From Steroidobacter agaridevorans (GTDB lineage: Bacteria > Pseudomonadota > Gammaproteobacteria > Steroidobacterales > Steroidobacteraceae): a DNA stretch of 64,000 nt. The notes under the pieces were generated by a model, which did no database searches, was not told where the DNA came from, and was given only the letters and a program-made list of their open reading frames with translations. Position 1 is the first letter of the stretch; each line of letters begins with the position of its first letter. The DNA is taken from positions 310,001 through 374,000 of the forward strand of contig NZ_BLJO01000003.1 in NCBI RefSeq assembly GCF_009932555.1, given 5' to 3'. The position numbers and the translations under genes are program-made. Of this stretch, positions 53,180 to 59,540 are shown piece after piece.

Positions 53180-53283
53180 GGGCGATCAGGGCGACTCTGT
53201 TGCCGGGCTTCGATCTGGTCTTGCAGCTTCTGAGCTCGCTCGTGGGTGGAGGCAAGTTCCTTGCGCCTGCTCTGGCACCCGGT

Positions 53284-54000
53284 TCATGGATTATCCACTC
53301 GGCTGGCCTGTGTCTCGGGCGGTGCTGCAGAGTGGTTTGCGAGGCTGGCGCGCTCGAATTCCGCCAGCGCAGACCATTGCTCGGTTGTTAGCAAAGGTCG
53401 GACTTCGTCGAGAAAGGCGCGTTCGTGGTGTTCGATACCCGCTGCGGCCACGTCGCGTGCGTACGCGCGTTCCATCGCTGGAATGTTTGCTTCATCCAGT
53501 TCGGAATCGAGCACCAGCAGCTGCGCGGCGGTTGAGTGATTCAATTTCGCGAGCAGGAGACCGCGCCGCTGTTCGGGATGCAGCGGCGACGTTGTTTCAA
53601 CCTGGTTCGCGAAGGCTTGCAGGTGAGCTTGAATGGCATCGGACCCGCGAAGCTGCTCGTACAGCGAATATTCCTCCGCACTCAGCAGCAGGGAGATTTC
53701 GCGCTCGCGTGCGGCGAGAAGGGCGAGGTCCGTTACTTGCTCCGAGTCCGCAAGCAATGTCTGCAAGCGCGAGACGGTGACGGGTGGTAGTTGATCTAGC
53801 AGCACGGCGTACATCGGAGAGTTTGCAACAGCCGGCCGGTGCTCATCAGCGCTGGGTGCAGGCGGCGCCGCATCGACTGGCGAATCAATCCGTTCTACAT
53901 GCGGCGGCGGTAGCGGAGTGGATTGAGGGTTCGATGTTTCCTCCGAGCCCATCCACCACGCCACCGCCACCGCACCCACACATGCGACCAGGAGGCGCAT
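53284..54000 (-). CDS. Membrane-anchored helical protein, partner of the secreted esterase
   Basis: A 238-residue protein: hydrophobic anchor (about 2-17), Pro-rich linker (about 25-60), then an all-helical domain with long Leu/Glu-rich stretches (LQTLLADSEQVTDLALLAARE, MERAYARDVAAAGIEHHERAF). Its ATG overlaps the esterase stop (TGATG), so the two are made together. The same plan is seen in the partner of the acetylesterase-like protein at 38.7 kb. A foldase or anchor role is inferred. It has no known domain. Confidence 0.6.
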   Translation of the reverse strand: MRLLVACVGAVAVAWWMGSEETSNPQSTPLPPPHVERIDSPVDAAPPAPSADEHRPAVANSPMYAVLLDQLPPVTVSRLQTLLADSEQVTDLALLAAREREISLLLSAEEYSLYEQLRGSDAIQAHLQAFANQVETTSPLHPEQRRGLLLAKLNHSTAAQLLVLDSELDEANIPAMERAYARDVAAAGIEHHERAFLDEVRPLLTTEQWSALAEFERASLANHSAAPPETQASRVDNP

Positions 54001-55220
54001 CACCAGTTCTTGCTTCTCGTCGACCAGATGCCGCCGCAGAAGTAACAGCCGGCGCCGATGAACATGCCGCGACGATCGGTCTCGCCGCCGATCTGCCAGC
54101 GCAGCCACGCGGTGATGGCGGGCAAGCCCGAGCGGGCCGCGTTGATGTGATCGACGTTGTCCATGATGGTGAACACGATCGGCACCGTCGTGGCGCTGTA
54201 ATCGCGCTCGCAGTTGGGTGTTGCCGTCGTGTCATTCTCGCCGCAGATGTAGATCGCGGGATTGCGCAAGTTGCGCGAGCCGTTGCCATCGAACGAGCCG
54301 CCGGCGACATGAATCGTGGTTTTCAGTCGCGAATCGCTGGCGATGGCGAAGGTGCCGATCGAGCCGCGTGAGTGGCCGCCGGCCGCCATGCGATCCAGAG
54401 CGAGACGTTGATAGTAGGGACTGCCGGCGCGCCCGTTCTCGCTCACCAGCCAATCCAACGCGGCTCGAATCTCGCTGCCGCTGCTCGTCGAGACTTCCGA
54501 GTAGACGACGAATCCATGCGAAGCGAGGCGTCGCAGATGGAATTCATAGCTGCTCGGCGTCGCGCCCGCGCCAGGCCCCCAGACGAACACCGGATGCCGC
54601 AAGCCGTTTTGACCGAGCGTCGTCGGACGCACGACCCAGCCGCTGCGACCGGAGCCTGCATTCATGTCGATGGTCGTCGAGAAGGGGCCGTCGGTCTCGA
54701 TGCTGGACACCGGCGGCAGCACGCCACCGCCCGGATCGGGATCCGAGCCGCCCGTACCATCGAGCACGATGTTTGCGACGGTGTACGTCTCCAGCAGGCT
54801 GCTGGCGTTCACTGCGAAGCGCAGGAACACGCGGCTCTGATTGTTTGCTCCGGCGCCGAGGCTCAGCGTCACGCGGCCGCTGGCAGTTCGAACGGATTCG
54901 AGCTGAGTGAAGGTGCTGCCGTCCGTCGAGAACGAGGCGACCGCAGCTTCGCCCAGGTCGAGCCCGGACGTGGTGCGATCGAAGCTCAGCTGGACGTTCG
55001 TGAAGCCCGCGGTGCTGATGGCGGCAGAGGTAATCTGCGCGCCACCAGAGAGACCGCCGCGCATGCGTGCGCCATAGCTTCCCGTCGCCACACTGCCGCT
55101 GGAGGTGAATGTGCCCAAGCCTCCGGCAAAGTTCTCCTGAAAGATGGTGGCCGCCGACGCGCCGGCACTCACCAGCGCGCCGATCGCGATTGTCGCGAAT
55201 GTAAGCAGTCTCATGGTCAT
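54000..55220 (-). CDS. Secreted esterase/hydrolase with N-terminal beta-sandwich domain
   Basis: A 406-residue exported protein: signal peptide (about 1-23), a beta-sandwich domain (about 24-155), a Gly/Pro/Asp linker (GGSDPDPGGG) and an alpha/beta-hydrolase domain of the polyester-hydrolase/dienelactone-hydrolase type with nucleophile GGHSRGS (Ser284), Asp330 in CGEND or nearby, and His358 in NVDHINAA. Cys326 and Cys337 may form a disulfide. The beta-sandwich is shared with the cytochrome encoded just upstream. Start ATG 55220 (or 55214) with GGAGG upstream. A polymer or large ester is a likely substrate, judging from the added binding domain. Confidence 0.78.
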   Translation of the reverse strand: MTMRLLTFATIAIGALVSAGASAATIFQENFAGGLGTFTSSGSVATGSYGARMRGGLSGGAQITSAAISTAGFTNVQLSFDRTTSGLDLGEAAVASFSTDGSTFTQLESVRTASGRVTLSLGAGANNQSRVFLRFAVNASSLLETYTVANIVLDGTGGSDPDPGGGVLPPVSSIETDGPFSTTIDMNAGSGRSGWVVRPTTLGQNGLRHPVFVWGPGAGATPSSYEFHLRRLASHGFVVYSEVSTSSGSEIRAALDWLVSENGRAGSPYYQRLALDRMAAGGHSRGSIGTFAIASDSRLKTTIHVAGGSFDGNGSRNLRNPAIYICGENDTTATPNCERDYSATTVPIVFTIMDNVDHINAARSGLPAITAWLRWQIGGETDRRGMFIGAGCYFCGGIWSTRSKNW

Positions 55221-55240
55221 GGCCCTCCGTTGCCTATGCC

Positions 55241-58200
55241 TCAGGTCTCATCACGATCGAGCACGTTGTCCGAATCGCGGTCGACACCGATGCGCGAACC
55301 ATTTCCCGGCGGCGCGCACGTGAATGTGACCGTCGTTCCGGCCGAGCTGACTTGATTCAACAGCCCCTGCAGTGTCAGAGTCGCCTCGGACGCAGCGTTC
55401 GGCACGAAGCTCTGGCTGCCGTTCATGACCCAGCCTTTGGCGACGTTTTGTATCACTGCCTTCGCGACCAGCTCGCACTCGGGCCGAGGCGTCGTGACCA
55501 ACGCACGCTGCACGAGCAGATTCACGCGTGCGACGACATCGCTTTGCGCCACGTTGGCTGGAGTCGCTGTGACCTGCTGGCCGACGATGGGATTCATCTC
55601 GGACGGCATCGCGAGCACGAACTGCTCGACCTGGGATCGCTGGGTTGCGTTCAAGGTGAACACCGGCGCGCTCAGGAACAGGCTGACCGTGCCGGACGCA
55701 CCCGAGTTGTCGAAGCCAAAGCCGCGAATCTGATCGCCGAGGAAAGGCGAGGTGGTCTGGGTGTTCTCGGCGAACATGCCGACCTTCTGATACATGTTGC
55801 GCAGATGCGGGATCTTGAAGTCTTCATCGACGCCCGCACCTTCGATCGCCATCGTGCCGTCGGTGCCGAAGCGGTTCTGCGCCGGGTTGACGACGTGACA
55901 GCCATTGCAGGTGGTCAGCGTGTCGGAAGTGACGGTGTTGTAGATCTGCTGGCCCTGCGCCTGGATTGTCGTCAGCGAGTTGTCCAGATTCGCGATGGGG
56001 TTCGGCGGATACGTGAGTCGCAGGGCGAACTTCGCGAACGCATCCATCTCCGTTTCGGTGAGCTGTGTCGCGCGGCCGAGCAAACCGGTGAACGCGACGT
56101 TGAAGTCCTCGAACGCCTGCTCCTCGAGCGTTTCGTTGGCGTCACGGCTCACGCCTGTGCGATCGCCGCGCCAGTGCATCGGGCCGTTGCCCTTCAGGCC
56201 GCGCAGACTTTGCGTGGTCATCGGCCCTTTCATCGGATGCAGATTGCGGTTGCGGCCGAAGATGGGAATGTTGGTGTTGTAGGCGGTCGGGTTCTGGACC
56301 AGCACATCGTCGGGATTGCCCAGATCCCACGCGAGCTGATCCATGTCGCCGAAGATGTGACAGCCGGCGCAGGATGAGTCGCCGCGGCTGGACGTGGCGT
56401 TCGCGTCGTAAAGGAAGGGTCGGCCGGTGGTGACCACCGCGGGCTCTGGATTGAACATCCGGATGTGCGCGGCCTCGGTGAGCTGCGTTGTATTGACGAC
56501 GGAGATGCCGTTGTCGAAGCGAGTCAGCACGTACGCGCGGGCACGTGCTTCATCCAGCACCACGCCGGTTGGGCCGCCGCCCGATAGTGTCAATTGATTC
56601 GCCGCCGCCGGAGTGAAGGTGTTCGCCTCCAGCTGCGACGTGCTGAAGCGCGCGAGTTTGCCGGAACCCATCGCGACGATGAACAAGTTGCTGCCATCGG
56701 CGCTCACCGCCATCTCGAGCGGCGTGGCCAGGCTCAGCGCGCGCTCCGCAGCCGTGCCGACGCTGCTGTTGTAGCTGGTGATGTGTTTGTTGAGATGGCG
56801 GGGCGACACGGACGTGCCGCTGATGACAGTGATGCGGCTCTCCGCAAAGTGGCCGCGAACTGTCGTTGCGCGACTGCCAGGTCCCTCGAAGCGAGTGCGG
56901 TTGAGCGCTTCAGTATTGCTCACATACACGACGCCGGTGCGCGGATTCACGGCCAGGTTGAACAACGTCGTGCCGACACCGCTGATCCGGCTCGTGACCT
57001 GCGGCAATGTGCCGGTGGTGTCGATCGCGAACACATCGTAGTCAGGCAAAGTGAGCTTGACGCGATTGTTCCAGATCTGTGGCGCAACGCCGGTTCTTGG
57101 ATCGCCGCCGTCCAGCCAGTTCGTGCCATTGAATTGCACGATCAGTCCGGTGCCCGGCTGTGTCGTGCCGTCGGCTGCGTTGAACGGCGTTGGCTTGGAA
57201 ATGCCGCCTTCGCCGATGTCATCTGTGAGCACGGTGCTGCGGTTGCCGGAGTTCAATACGGCGGCGTACACGCGACTGCCATCGGCAGTTCGTGCAAGCC
57301 CGCGCAGCGTGTCGCCGAACATGTTGAGGACTGTGGCTGGCGCGCCGCCGAGCTTCGTGCCGAGGTTGTTTCGCGCGAAAACCCAGACATCCGCGCGACC
57401 GATGCCCGCTGTCGTCAGTTGCGGATTGAACGGAGCATTCTGGCCTCGATGCGCGGCGGTGATGAATGCCCAGGCATTCGAAGGTCCAGCGAACACGATG
57501 TCGCGCGGCTCATCGCCGACCAGCAGTGTGTTGACGATTCGTGCCGGCTGCGATGACACGTCGACGATGCTGACGCTATCGGACAAGTGATTGACGACCC
57601 ACAGCTCGTTATCGTTGGCGAGCGCGACTGCGACTGGCTCCAATCCCACCGAAATGGATTGCAGCAGGGTAGGCGTAGCGCCGGTCGTATCGAACACTTC
57701 GACCCGATTGTCCGGCGTGTTGACCGCATACAGACGGGAACCGTTGCTCGACAACGCCAGCGGCCGTACCTGGCCCGTCTCGAATGTCACAAATTCTCCC
57801 AGCGCCGGCCGCGGGCCGCCTGGGTTGCCGCCGCCACGCGTGCCTGACAGCGAAACGTTATCGACGTCGTAGGTTTCGAGCGTGCTGCTCGCATTGATGC
57901 TGAAGCGAATGACGATGCGGCTGGCGTTTGCAGCGGACGCGCCCAGTGGAAACGTGACGCGGCCGGCGGCCGTGCGGCTCGACTCCAGCGTGACGTACGC
58001 GCCGCCGTTGATGGAAACAGCGGCGATGCCGGCTTCGCCGAGATCCAGGCCCGATGAGGAACGATCGAAGCTCAACGAAATGTCCGTGAATCCCTGCGCG
58101 TTGATGGCGGTCGACGTGATCGTTCCATCGTCGCTGCCCAGGCTGCCACGCAGGCGTGCGGCGCCGGTAGTTGTCGATACGGTGCCTGTCGATGTGAATT

Positions 58201-58342
58201 GGCCCAACCCGGTGGAGAAGGCTTCCTGAAAAATCACATCGGCGCGAGTGATGCCTGCAAACATGCAGCAGGCCGCCAATAAAATACTGAGGCAAGAGAG
58301 CTTGCGCCGGCGCGGAACGCGCGGCGTGAACGAGTGAAACAT
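55241..58342 (-). CDS. Secreted dihaem cytochrome with beta-propeller and beta-sandwich domain
   Basis: A 1033-residue exported protein. After the signal peptide (about 1-34) comes a beta-sandwich (about 35-165) like that of the downstream esterase, then a YncE-like seven-bladed propeller (about 180-620) and a C-terminal cytochrome part with two haem motifs, SSCAGCHIFGD (about 660) and TTCNGCHVVNP (about 815), and a peroxidase-like stretch IPHLRNMYQKVGMF. The layout recalls dihaem peroxidase/MauG relatives fused to a propeller. ATG 58342 is preceded by GGGGGA. The esterase gene starts 20 bases later, so both are in one operon. Confidence 0.75.
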   Translation of the reverse strand: MFHSFTPRVPRRRKLSCLSILLAACCMFAGITRADVIFQEAFSTGLGQFTSTGTVSTTTGAARLRGSLGSDDGTITSTAINAQGFTDISLSFDRSSSGLDLGEAGIAAVSINGGAYVTLESSRTAAGRVTFPLGASAANASRIVIRFSINASSTLETYDVDNVSLSGTRGGGNPGGPRPALGEFVTFETGQVRPLALSSNGSRLYAVNTPDNRVEVFDTTGATPTLLQSISVGLEPVAVALANDNELWVVNHLSDSVSIVDVSSQPARIVNTLLVGDEPRDIVFAGPSNAWAFITAAHRGQNAPFNPQLTTAGIGRADVWVFARNNLGTKLGGAPATVLNMFGDTLRGLARTADGSRVYAAVLNSGNRSTVLTDDIGEGGISKPTPFNAADGTTQPGTGLIVQFNGTNWLDGGDPRTGVAPQIWNNRVKLTLPDYDVFAIDTTGTLPQVTSRISGVGTTLFNLAVNPRTGVVYVSNTEALNRTRFEGPGSRATTVRGHFAESRITVISGTSVSPRHLNKHITSYNSSVGTAAERALSLATPLEMAVSADGSNLFIVAMGSGKLARFSTSQLEANTFTPAAANQLTLSGGGPTGVVLDEARARAYVLTRFDNGISVVNTTQLTEAAHIRMFNPEPAVVTTGRPFLYDANATSSRGDSSCAGCHIFGDMDQLAWDLGNPDDVLVQNPTAYNTNIPIFGRNRNLHPMKGPMTTQSLRGLKGNGPMHWRGDRTGVSRDANETLEEQAFEDFNVAFTGLLGRATQLTETEMDAFAKFALRLTYPPNPIANLDNSLTTIQAQGQQIYNTVTSDTLTTCNGCHVVNPAQNRFGTDGTMAIEGAGVDEDFKIPHLRNMYQKVGMFAENTQTTSPFLGDQIRGFGFDNSGASGTVSLFLSAPVFTLNATQRSQVEQFVLAMPSEMNPIVGQQVTATPANVAQSDVVARVNLLVQRALVTTPRPECELVAKAVIQNVAKGWVMNGSQSFVPNAASEATLTLQGLLNQVSSAGTTVTFTCAPPGNGSRIGVDRDSDNVLDRDET

Positions 58343-58421: not shown

Positions 58422-59540
58422 CTACGAACGCGCTATGACACGACTTACCGCTTTGCTGGAGAATTGGCGTGTGTTGATGCGACGTGCGGCGCTCGGTGGT
58501 GGCGCTTCCCGCATCGTGCCCGCAGCGCTGCCGCTCCAATTCCGTATGGCGCGACGCAGACTGGATGCGCACGAGAAACCCATCAGTTCCGCGATCTGAT
58601 CGACGCTCAAGCGCGAGCAGCGCAGGTGATGTGCCGTGAGCTCCATGCGAACCTCGTGAGTGATCTCACGGAAGGTGATGCCTTCGCTGGCAAGACGCCG
58701 TGTCAGAGCGCGAGGCGTGACGCTCAGCATGGAGGCGATCTCGTTGAGTGGCGGGCGCTTGTTGAAGCCGGCGAACACGTGCCAGCGCACCTTCGCGCGA
58801 TAGCTCGGCTCGACCTGCGATTCGACCAGCTCCTGCTCGCAGCGCTGGATGATTCGATCGAACGCGCGCCGTCGGAATGGACGAAACGGCTCCAATACGA
58901 AATGCCGATGCGCAGCGATGTAGGAGCGCGGGCAATCGAACCGGACCGACGTGCAGGGGAGCGAGCGATACAGATGGGCGTAACTGGGCTCGGAATGATT
59001 CAGACACACACGGATCGAGGTGTCGGGTGCTGCTTTGTTGCCACACGAGTCCCAGATGCGGAGCTGCATGGCGAGACGGAACTCACTTTCGAATTGCCGC
59101 AAGGGCTCGGGCGCGCCACCCGCAGGAAAGCAGTCCAGTGGATCGACGATCATGCCGTCGAGATCCAAGTACGTCGTCGCCCGGCGACCGCGGAAGGCGT
59201 ACCACGGTTGCGCGATCATCAGGTAACGCTGGAAGGCTTCGCCGGCGGCACGCAGGCTGGGACTACATTGCACGACCCCGCCGACGCTGCCGTAATAACT
59301 CCAATCGAACATCTGACCGACGAGCAGGCCGAGCCCCGGGCGATGACATTGCGACAGGCCGTTGGCGATCAGCCGTGCTTGCTGTGCATATGAAATACGT
59401 GCACGCGGATCGTCGAGCATCGACTGCGAGATGCCAGTACCGCGGAGCAGAGTGGCAAGGCTGGCGTCGAGCTGCGTGAAGGCTTCGATGAATCCCAAGG
59501 GATGAAGCTGCAGCGGAATGACGGCTGCGTCGGCGTCCAT
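58422..59540 (-). CDS. AraC family transcriptional regulator
   Basis: A 372-residue regulator of the OruR-like group: N-terminal sensor domain (LGFIEAFTQLDASLATLLRGTG, SYAQQARLIANGL) and C-terminal AraC helix-turn-helix (MLSVTPRALTRRLASEGITFREI and DQIAELMGFSCASSLRRAIRNWSG). It lies directly upstream of the cytochrome-esterase-partner genes, same strand, 79 bases away, so it probably activates them. The effector is unknown. The C-terminal 35 residues are an extra Arg/Ser-rich tail. The 155 bases upstream (59541-59695) hold no gene. Confidence 0.85.
   Translation of the reverse strand: MDADAAVIPLQLHPLGFIEAFTQLDASLATLLRGTGISQSMLDDPRARISYAQQARLIANGLSQCHRPGLGLLVGQMFDWSYYGSVGGVVQCSPSLRAAGEAFQRYLMIAQPWYAFRGRRATTYLDLDGMIVDPLDCFPAGGAPEPLRQFESEFRLAMQLRIWDSCGNKAAPDTSIRVCLNHSEPSYAHLYRSLPCTSVRFDCPRSYIAAHRHFVLEPFRPFRRRAFDRIIQRCEQELVESQVEPSYRAKVRWHVFAGFNKRPPLNEIASMLSVTPRALTRRLASEGITFREITHEVRMELTAHHLRCSRLSVDQIAELMGFSCASSLRRAIRNWSGSAAGTMREAPPPSAARRINTRQFSSKAVSRVIARS

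Follow-up and report, generated by a model that had tools for sequence, protein, structure and literature searches.

A domain shared by a PETase-family hydrolase and a propeller-dihaem cytochrome encoded side by side in Steroidobacter agaridevorans

The locus and its shared domain

The window, a stretch of 64,000 nucleotides of Steroidobacter agaridevorans DNA (assembly GCF_009932555.1, contig NZ_BLJO01000003.1, positions 310,001 to 374,000), carries four closely spaced genes on its minus strand, in the order AraC-type regulator, cytochrome, esterase, helical protein. The cytochrome and the esterase, both putatively exported, carry the same N-terminal domain, which is the subject of this report. 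The genome measures 8.0 Mb and is placed in the same genus as Peristeroidobacter agariperforans KA5-B (G011), in which the AraC-type gene has the equivalent position directly upstream of the cytochrome gene. The features of the locus are as follows.

58422..59540, minus strand: AraC-type regulator gene (Arabinose_bd PF12625 and HTH_18; Pfam 81.5 and 50.2 bits)
55241..58342, minus strand: exported cytochrome of 1033 aa, with signal region, shared domain, beta-propeller and CCP/MauG-like dihaem part
57833..58237, minus strand: shared domain, cytochrome copy, residues 36-170 (57% identity to the esterase copy)
54000..55220, minus strand: PETase-family (PF12740) hydrolase of 406 aa with N-terminal shared domain
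54744..55151, minus strand: shared domain, esterase copy, residues 24-159, predicted jelly roll (model confidence 82-94; Foldseek)
53284..54000, minus strand: helical protein of 238 aa with N-terminal hydrophobic segment
53202..53267, minus strand: probable deletion scar (blastn pieces against KA5-B)

The AraC-type gene and the cytochrome gene are separated by 79 bp, and the cytochrome and esterase genes by 20 bp; the ATG of the helical-protein gene overlaps the esterase stop by one base. An upstream AraC gene and a translationally coupled helical protein had both been read from the sequence alone, and both genes are present. Because of the close spacing, we infer that the four genes form one transcript. 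A scan of the locus for promoters and terminators gave nothing exceeding shuffles.

The two copies (esterase residues 24-159, cytochrome residues 36-170) align at 57% identity with a single internal one-residue gap. The local BLOSUM62 score of the pair is 345; 500 shuffles gave a mean of 45.2, a standard deviation of 7.9 and a maximum of 74. The end-to-end alignment claimed by the sequence-only reading is thus upheld. From the sequences, the domain is attached in both proteins through a Gly/Pro-rich linker.

Eleven copies of the domain, gathered as described below, were scanned against Pfam and NCBIfam at E-values up to 10, and no family could be assigned. The weak Pfam matches were to GEVED (four copies, best E 0.011), F5/8 type C models (two copies each), DUF2807 (one copy) and an InhA-like MAM family (one of the 11, E 0.018); the NCBIfam scan gave two odd single matches. 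None of the carbohydrate-binding module (CBM) families in Pfam was matched by any of the 11 copies at that threshold, and a profile of the 11 copies found no significant match in the PDB. An AlphaFold2 model of the esterase, made from six rows, is all-strand over residues 31-150, with a predicted local distance difference test (pLDDT) score of 82-94 per ten-residue block; the hydrolase part of the same model is poor. Foldseek was run with the whole esterase model, and the best 50 of 105 matches with E up to 0.001 were considered. Among the matches listed are the jelly rolls of CBM29, CBM16, CBM22, CBM61 and a porphyran CBM, together with MAM folds and the ligand-binding domains of Eph proteins; some chains scattered between them are unrelated. 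For chains consisting of a single CBM, the TM-score by target is 0.35-0.60 and the root-mean-square deviation 3.9-6.5. The shared domain is therefore predicted to be a CBM/MAM-like jelly roll, that is, to have the beta-sandwich of a carbohydrate-binding module, in agreement with the beta-sandwich proposed earlier.

The hydrolase, the cytochrome and the helical protein

The esterase scores 55.6 bits to PF12740, against a gathering cut-off of 28, and so belongs to the PETase family; this gives a type to what had been described only as a secreted esterase. Its closest solved chains, 9hl5, 9k0h, 9w68 and 2fx5, are named alpha/beta hydrolase, PETase or lipase. We take 2fx5, 9hl5 and 9k0h to be PmC, HaloPETase1 and dsPETase05, the last two from their residue numbering. 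These are type III PETases, described as active on poly(ethylene terephthalate) (PET) and other polyesters (PMC13396203). The hydrolase part resembles them (best solved matches E 3e-35 to 3e-36), the Ser (in GHSRGS), Asp and His aligning with the catalytic triads of 9hl5, 9k0h and 2fx5, and the C-terminal Cys pair is kept. In contrast, the type III signature is absent: GHSRG replaces GHSQG, and the positions of Thr100 and Tyr192 of dsPETase05 hold Ala and His, as placed by alignment with 9k0h using residue numbers from PMC13396203 and an offset of 33 derived by hand. The N-terminal Cys pair is also absent, so that the two disulphides typical of type III are not both present, and a 136-residue N-terminal domain has been added. 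Since the type III signatures are missing, the esterase is, by sequence, a sister branch of the type III PETases and not a member.

The second carrier had been read as a dihaem cytochrome with a propeller, and this description stands: there are two CXXCH motifs, and the propeller matches Lactonase PF10282 at 26 bits (cut-off 21.7) and the YVTN repeat TIGR02276 at 32.7 bits (cut-off 27.85). A family of 37 members was aligned, each with a best BLAST match spanning about 780 or more of 851 positions, after a duplicate and a fragment were dropped. The two CXXCH motifs, H723 and W724 are invariant in all 37, and M856 is kept in 89%. By analogy with cytochrome c peroxidase (CCP), H723, W724 and M856 are candidate distal ligands. 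The window cytochrome scores 20.4 bits to PF03150 (CCP_MauG), below the gathering cut-off of 25.6; 24 of 30 family members match CCP_MauG at E up to 0.01, the best at 1.4e-5. A profile from 30 of the 37 members finds hydrazine synthase gamma as its best PDB match (2.9e-8), followed by weak matches to dihaem enzymes, and the same protein, 5c2v, is the only PDB match of the window cytochrome itself at E up to 0.01 (0.0018). Hydrazine synthase beta-gamma likewise has a propeller followed by a dihaem part. The window cytochrome differs in carrying the shared domain and in scoring 28.1 bits against an NCBIfam cut-off of 1250. Fused beta-gamma homologues are described as highly prevalent in environmental bacteria, the text consulted stating no tested function for them (PMC12758564).

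Two other cytochromes deserve comparison. The only plasmid homologue found, which belongs to the propeller-dihaem family, is a YncE-family protein of pTML1, from a thiomarinol producer, with 39.9% identity over 82% of the window cytochrome. Its gene (L064:11941-14982) is the last of the hol (pyrrothine) cluster, and from this gene order it is probably HolH, a protein given as of unknown function (PMC3069032). HolH differs in lacking the shared domain and in its antibiotic-cluster context. The rubber oxygenases RoxA and RoxB are, like the window protein, dihaem cytochromes, and come from a genus related to the window organism; RoxA is not known to have a propeller, and the dihaem profile, searched to an E-value of 1, gave five matches of which none is a chain named RoxA. 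Both are extracellular c-type cytochromes of Steroidobacter cummioxidans, described as attacking an insoluble polymer (PMC5979037).

A Pfam scan of the helical protein to an E-value of 1 was empty. The idea that it is a lipase chaperone (PF03280) found no support: that profile gives no match, and a profile comparison with the KA5-B chaperone described below was not significant. A paralogue with 30% identity is encoded directly downstream of a pectate lyase gene (PF03211) in the window genome (L100:3811-5856), a layout like that of the esterase locus, and KA5-B has a paralogue likewise downstream of a likely pectate lyase ortholog, the Pfam run having been made on the window-genome copy only. 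The relatives of the helical protein are perhaps a helper family for exported enzymes, and the protein itself is a possible helper of this kind. The position of the paralogue after a pectate lyase gene suggests plant material as the setting.

Distribution and history of the domain

The window genome has two copies of the domain. A third, weak match (E 0.006, with a stop inside) was taken as chance because it lies on the strand opposite to another open frame. With two copies in 8.0 Mb, a general sorting or export signal, carried by dozens of unrelated exported proteins, is ruled out. In the sampled genomes, 11 distinct strong copies are attached to just two types of partner, namely PF12740 esterases (eight) and beta-propeller dihaem cytochromes (three). 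The esterase-type copies comprise two from Peristeroidobacter and six from the order of Streptomyces aidingensis, one of which (G460) has a frame that ends early within the hydrolase part. Each Streptomycetales genome with the domain has one copy, on an esterase, and the deltaproteobacterial metagenome-assembled genome (MAG) DP_38 has one, on a cytochrome.

The counts come from overlapping samples, and the large searches were a fast first pass in which at most 14-16 candidates were scored per genome (3 for the cytochrome). Scanning genome contigs for two short peptide patterns brought up three loci, in KA5-B, Streptomyces aidingensis and DP_38. The domain profile, with an E-value limit of 1e-6, matched 5 of the 282 genomes sampled from the DP_38 phylum, strongly in one, and 7 of the 293 from the S. 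aidingensis order, strongly in six. The own-class sample of 258 genomes gave the window genome and one weak match, and the S. aidingensis phylum sample of 276 gave two matches, both already known. Among 60 relatives, window genome included, eight had a match at E up to 0.01, strong only in the window genome and KA5-B. Six weak matches (four from the DP_38 phylum and one each from the S. aidingensis order and the window's own class) sit on other proteins. A set of 72,556 plasmid records contained no match to the esterase copy, and 50,697 phage records contained none to the cytochrome copy; the domain alignment found nothing in viral contigs, nor the esterase in phages. Spread by plasmids, phages or viruses thus has no supporting match in these sets.

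Relatives of the cytochrome core (E up to 1e-20) are common in the DP_38 phylum, being present in 58 of 282 genomes, many with several, and were found in 3 of 299 in the own-phylum sample, window genome included; among the relatives examined, only the window, KA5-B and DP_38 cytochromes have the domain, and the majority of dihaem relatives do not. A sample of 192 genomes from the S. aidingensis order contained 13 with an esterase match (E up to 1e-25), the domain being present in the three at 56-57% identity and not in the ten at 29-38%. The hydrolase parts from Peristeroidobacter share 54-58% identity with those of the five esterases from that order that are complete, and cytochrome cores are 74% identical between Peristeroidobacter and DP_38.

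In a tree of the domain, the esterase and cytochrome copies fall on opposite sides of one branch with support of 96/92. A recent copying of the domain from one gene to the other is unsupported, given this separation. The two proteins could also be chance neighbours, unrelated to each other, without a joint function, and each supplied with its domain from a common pool of modules for exported proteins. They were found together in two genomes only, and the domain is part of a wider group of similar modules, as this account would have it. However, the two window copies are more alike (57% identity) than the window esterase copy is to its Streptomycetales counterparts (44-50%), and their genes, adjacent on one strand with 20 bp between them, are conserved in KA5-B with a DNA identity of 90%. 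We regard chance as very improbable.

A further possibility is that the domain is a docking module, holding hydrolase and cytochrome in one complex or fixing both to one outer-membrane partner. MAM-like jelly rolls are able to pair with each other, and the MAM and Eph ligand-binding folds found by Foldseek, along with the weak InhA-like MAM match, are what docking would lead one to expect; the N-terminus of the DP_38 cytochrome also resembles, by eye, a lipoprotein signal. In contrast, the domain is found only on the esterase in S. aidingensis and only on the cytochrome in DP_38, a MAG (a domain-free version of the other enzyme was not searched for). Pairing of esterase and cytochrome through the domain is therefore not its general function, and docking seems to us decidedly unlikely.

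The KA5-B locus is retained at 90% DNA identity and has 1,864 further bases that are absent from the window. Downstream of the helical protein, these encode a canonical PETase/cutinase (L012:9145-10029; 395 bits to PF12740 and 395 bits to 8eu1) and then a lipase chaperone (L012:10045-10797; Lipase_chap PF03280, 2.9e-12). In the window, 41 bases at 53202-53242 still match the chaperone gene at its 3' end, and the blastn pieces (window side/KA5-B side, numbered within the compared stretches) are 6265-6334/8812-8881 and 6359-6399/10746-10785. Given this leftover 3' end, the PETase-chaperone pair was most likely lost in the window lineage, a gain in KA5-B being less likely. Genome G005 has the pair as well, but neither the esterase nor the cytochrome lies inside the 11.9 kb read there. 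The presence of a second PETase and a lipase chaperone in KA5-B places the module in a polyester-degrading setting.

On the other side of the scar, the window segment 49622-53179 encodes three proteins. A CHRD/Big_7 protein has CSGCH in its C-terminal part, CTGCH is found in a protein resembling lipoproteins, and the third is a beta-barrel (Porin_O_P, 23.9 bits, cut-off 20.9) with an N-terminal CASCH, a fused cytochrome-porin layout. All three genes are retained in KA5-B.

What the shared domain may do

We propose, with a likelihood that we place a little short of an even chance, that the domain is an accessory module that co-locates the hydrolase and the redox protein on a polyester or surface. 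On this reading, the locus as a whole would be a small secreted unit for attack on polyester, probably a plant polyester such as cutin or suberin. In favour of it count the alignment score far above shuffles, the two copies in the genome, the confinement of the 11 close copies to two partners, the presence of the domain on just the closest esterases of the S. aidingensis order, the split in the domain tree, the PETase and chaperone of KA5-B with the probable scar in the window, the solved relatives of the esterase, the jelly-roll model and the pectate lyase gene next to the helical-protein paralogue. The domain may plausibly bind substrate.

Several results weigh against this proposal. Trp is absent from all 11 copies of the domain, so that the aromatic face classical for carbohydrate binding is not apparent; the copies contain 1-6 Tyr and 6-9 Phe each, as sequence counts that take no account of exposure. 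The Foldseek query was the whole esterase model, in which 243 of 406 residues have pLDDT below 50, and its matches are loose; the model of the cytochrome, from three sequences, is unusable (pLDDT 29). When five remote relatives are added to the domain tree, the split between esterase and cytochrome copies is no longer clean, and no root, hence no first partner of the domain, is supported. Only two genomes, both of Peristeroidobacter, yielded an esterase and a cytochrome that each bear the domain, and the module occurs in 1 of 13 other genomes of the genus. In KA5-B, the domain-bearing esterase gene is frameshifted, in two frames near the catalytic Ser (L012:6938-8151), which is either a real break or a sequencing error, and the probable loss of the PETase-chaperone pair from the window lineage counts on the same side. 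The window genome has two further dihaem paralogues without the domain, at 52% or 46% identity (46% by blastp). These paralogues (L065:8123-11020 and L066:8870-11713) each adjoin a LuxR/MalT-type regulator and not an esterase. Finally, 16 flanks of cytochrome relatives, checked at E up to 1e-3, encode no relative of the esterase or AraC protein of the locus, nor of the KA5-B PETase, the chaperone or the helical protein.

The earlier suggestion that both proteins act on one insoluble substrate or surface accordingly holds in part. The restriction of the domain to two copies in the genome, and of its 11 close copies to two partner types, speaks for it; dozens of copies on unrelated exported proteins were what the sequence-only reading had named as its own refutation. 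The second PETase with its lipase chaperone in KA5-B fits an insoluble polyester. The joint occurrence in two genomes only, and the lack of Trp, do not favour it.

Some of these observations would suit a domain that is a stabilising or folding add-on, a secreted beta-sandwich that travelled into two unrelated enzymes and says nothing about their substrate. BbPETase offers a precedent, by description: this naturally occurring member of the PETase family has an additional domain at its N-terminus, which is reported to raise thermal stability and perhaps to hinder adhesion to PET (PMC10546322). One difference lies in the catalytic domain, said to be almost the same as that of IsPETase, and the portion of that source consulted makes no mention of the extra domain on a redox protein (PMC10546322). 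The lack of Trp is in keeping with an add-on, as is the occurrence of distant relatives of the domain (E 2e-11 to 4e-7) on other secreted-looking proteins, including subtilase-, sedolisin- and metalloprotease-like ones typed by eye. However, the close copies are confined to two partner types, most dihaem relatives do without the domain, and the Gly/Pro-rich linker is that expected of an independent module. An add-on role appears rather unlikely to us.

If the shared domain does co-locate the two enzymes, the locus may work as follows. The AraC protein would activate the unit, perhaps on sensing fatty or aromatic acids that have been released. The domain would anchor both enzymes to one insoluble substrate or one cell-surface site, where the hydrolase would cut ester bonds at the surface and the CCP/MauG-like dihaem part would oxidise attached aromatic or unsaturated groups, or handle peroxides or electrons. 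The helical protein could aid the folding or exit of the exported hydrolase. In its most specific form, which we consider unlikely, the locus would do for polyesters, in a bacterium, what combined oxidases and hydrolases are known to do for polysaccharides: a single domain that binds surfaces would bring a hydrolase of the PETase family and a haem enzyme, either oxidase or peroxidase, to the same solid polyester, with oxidation and hydrolysis proceeding next to each other. In a full-text literature search, with subscription papers mostly outside it, none of the entries listed describes the pair, the domain or a cytochrome of this type in such a locus, and the portions of PMC9871534 and PMC10519993 consulted contain nothing on the locus.

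With its added domain, the esterase stands for a branch of its own within the PETase family, known here from Streptomycetales and Steroidobacteraceae. If co-location is correct, the locus would be a case from nature of two enzymes, a redox cytochrome and a hydrolase of polyesters, gathered at one surface via a common domain. It would also provide a functional handle on the propeller-dihaem family, distantly related to hydrazine synthase beta-gamma, for which we found no tested role.

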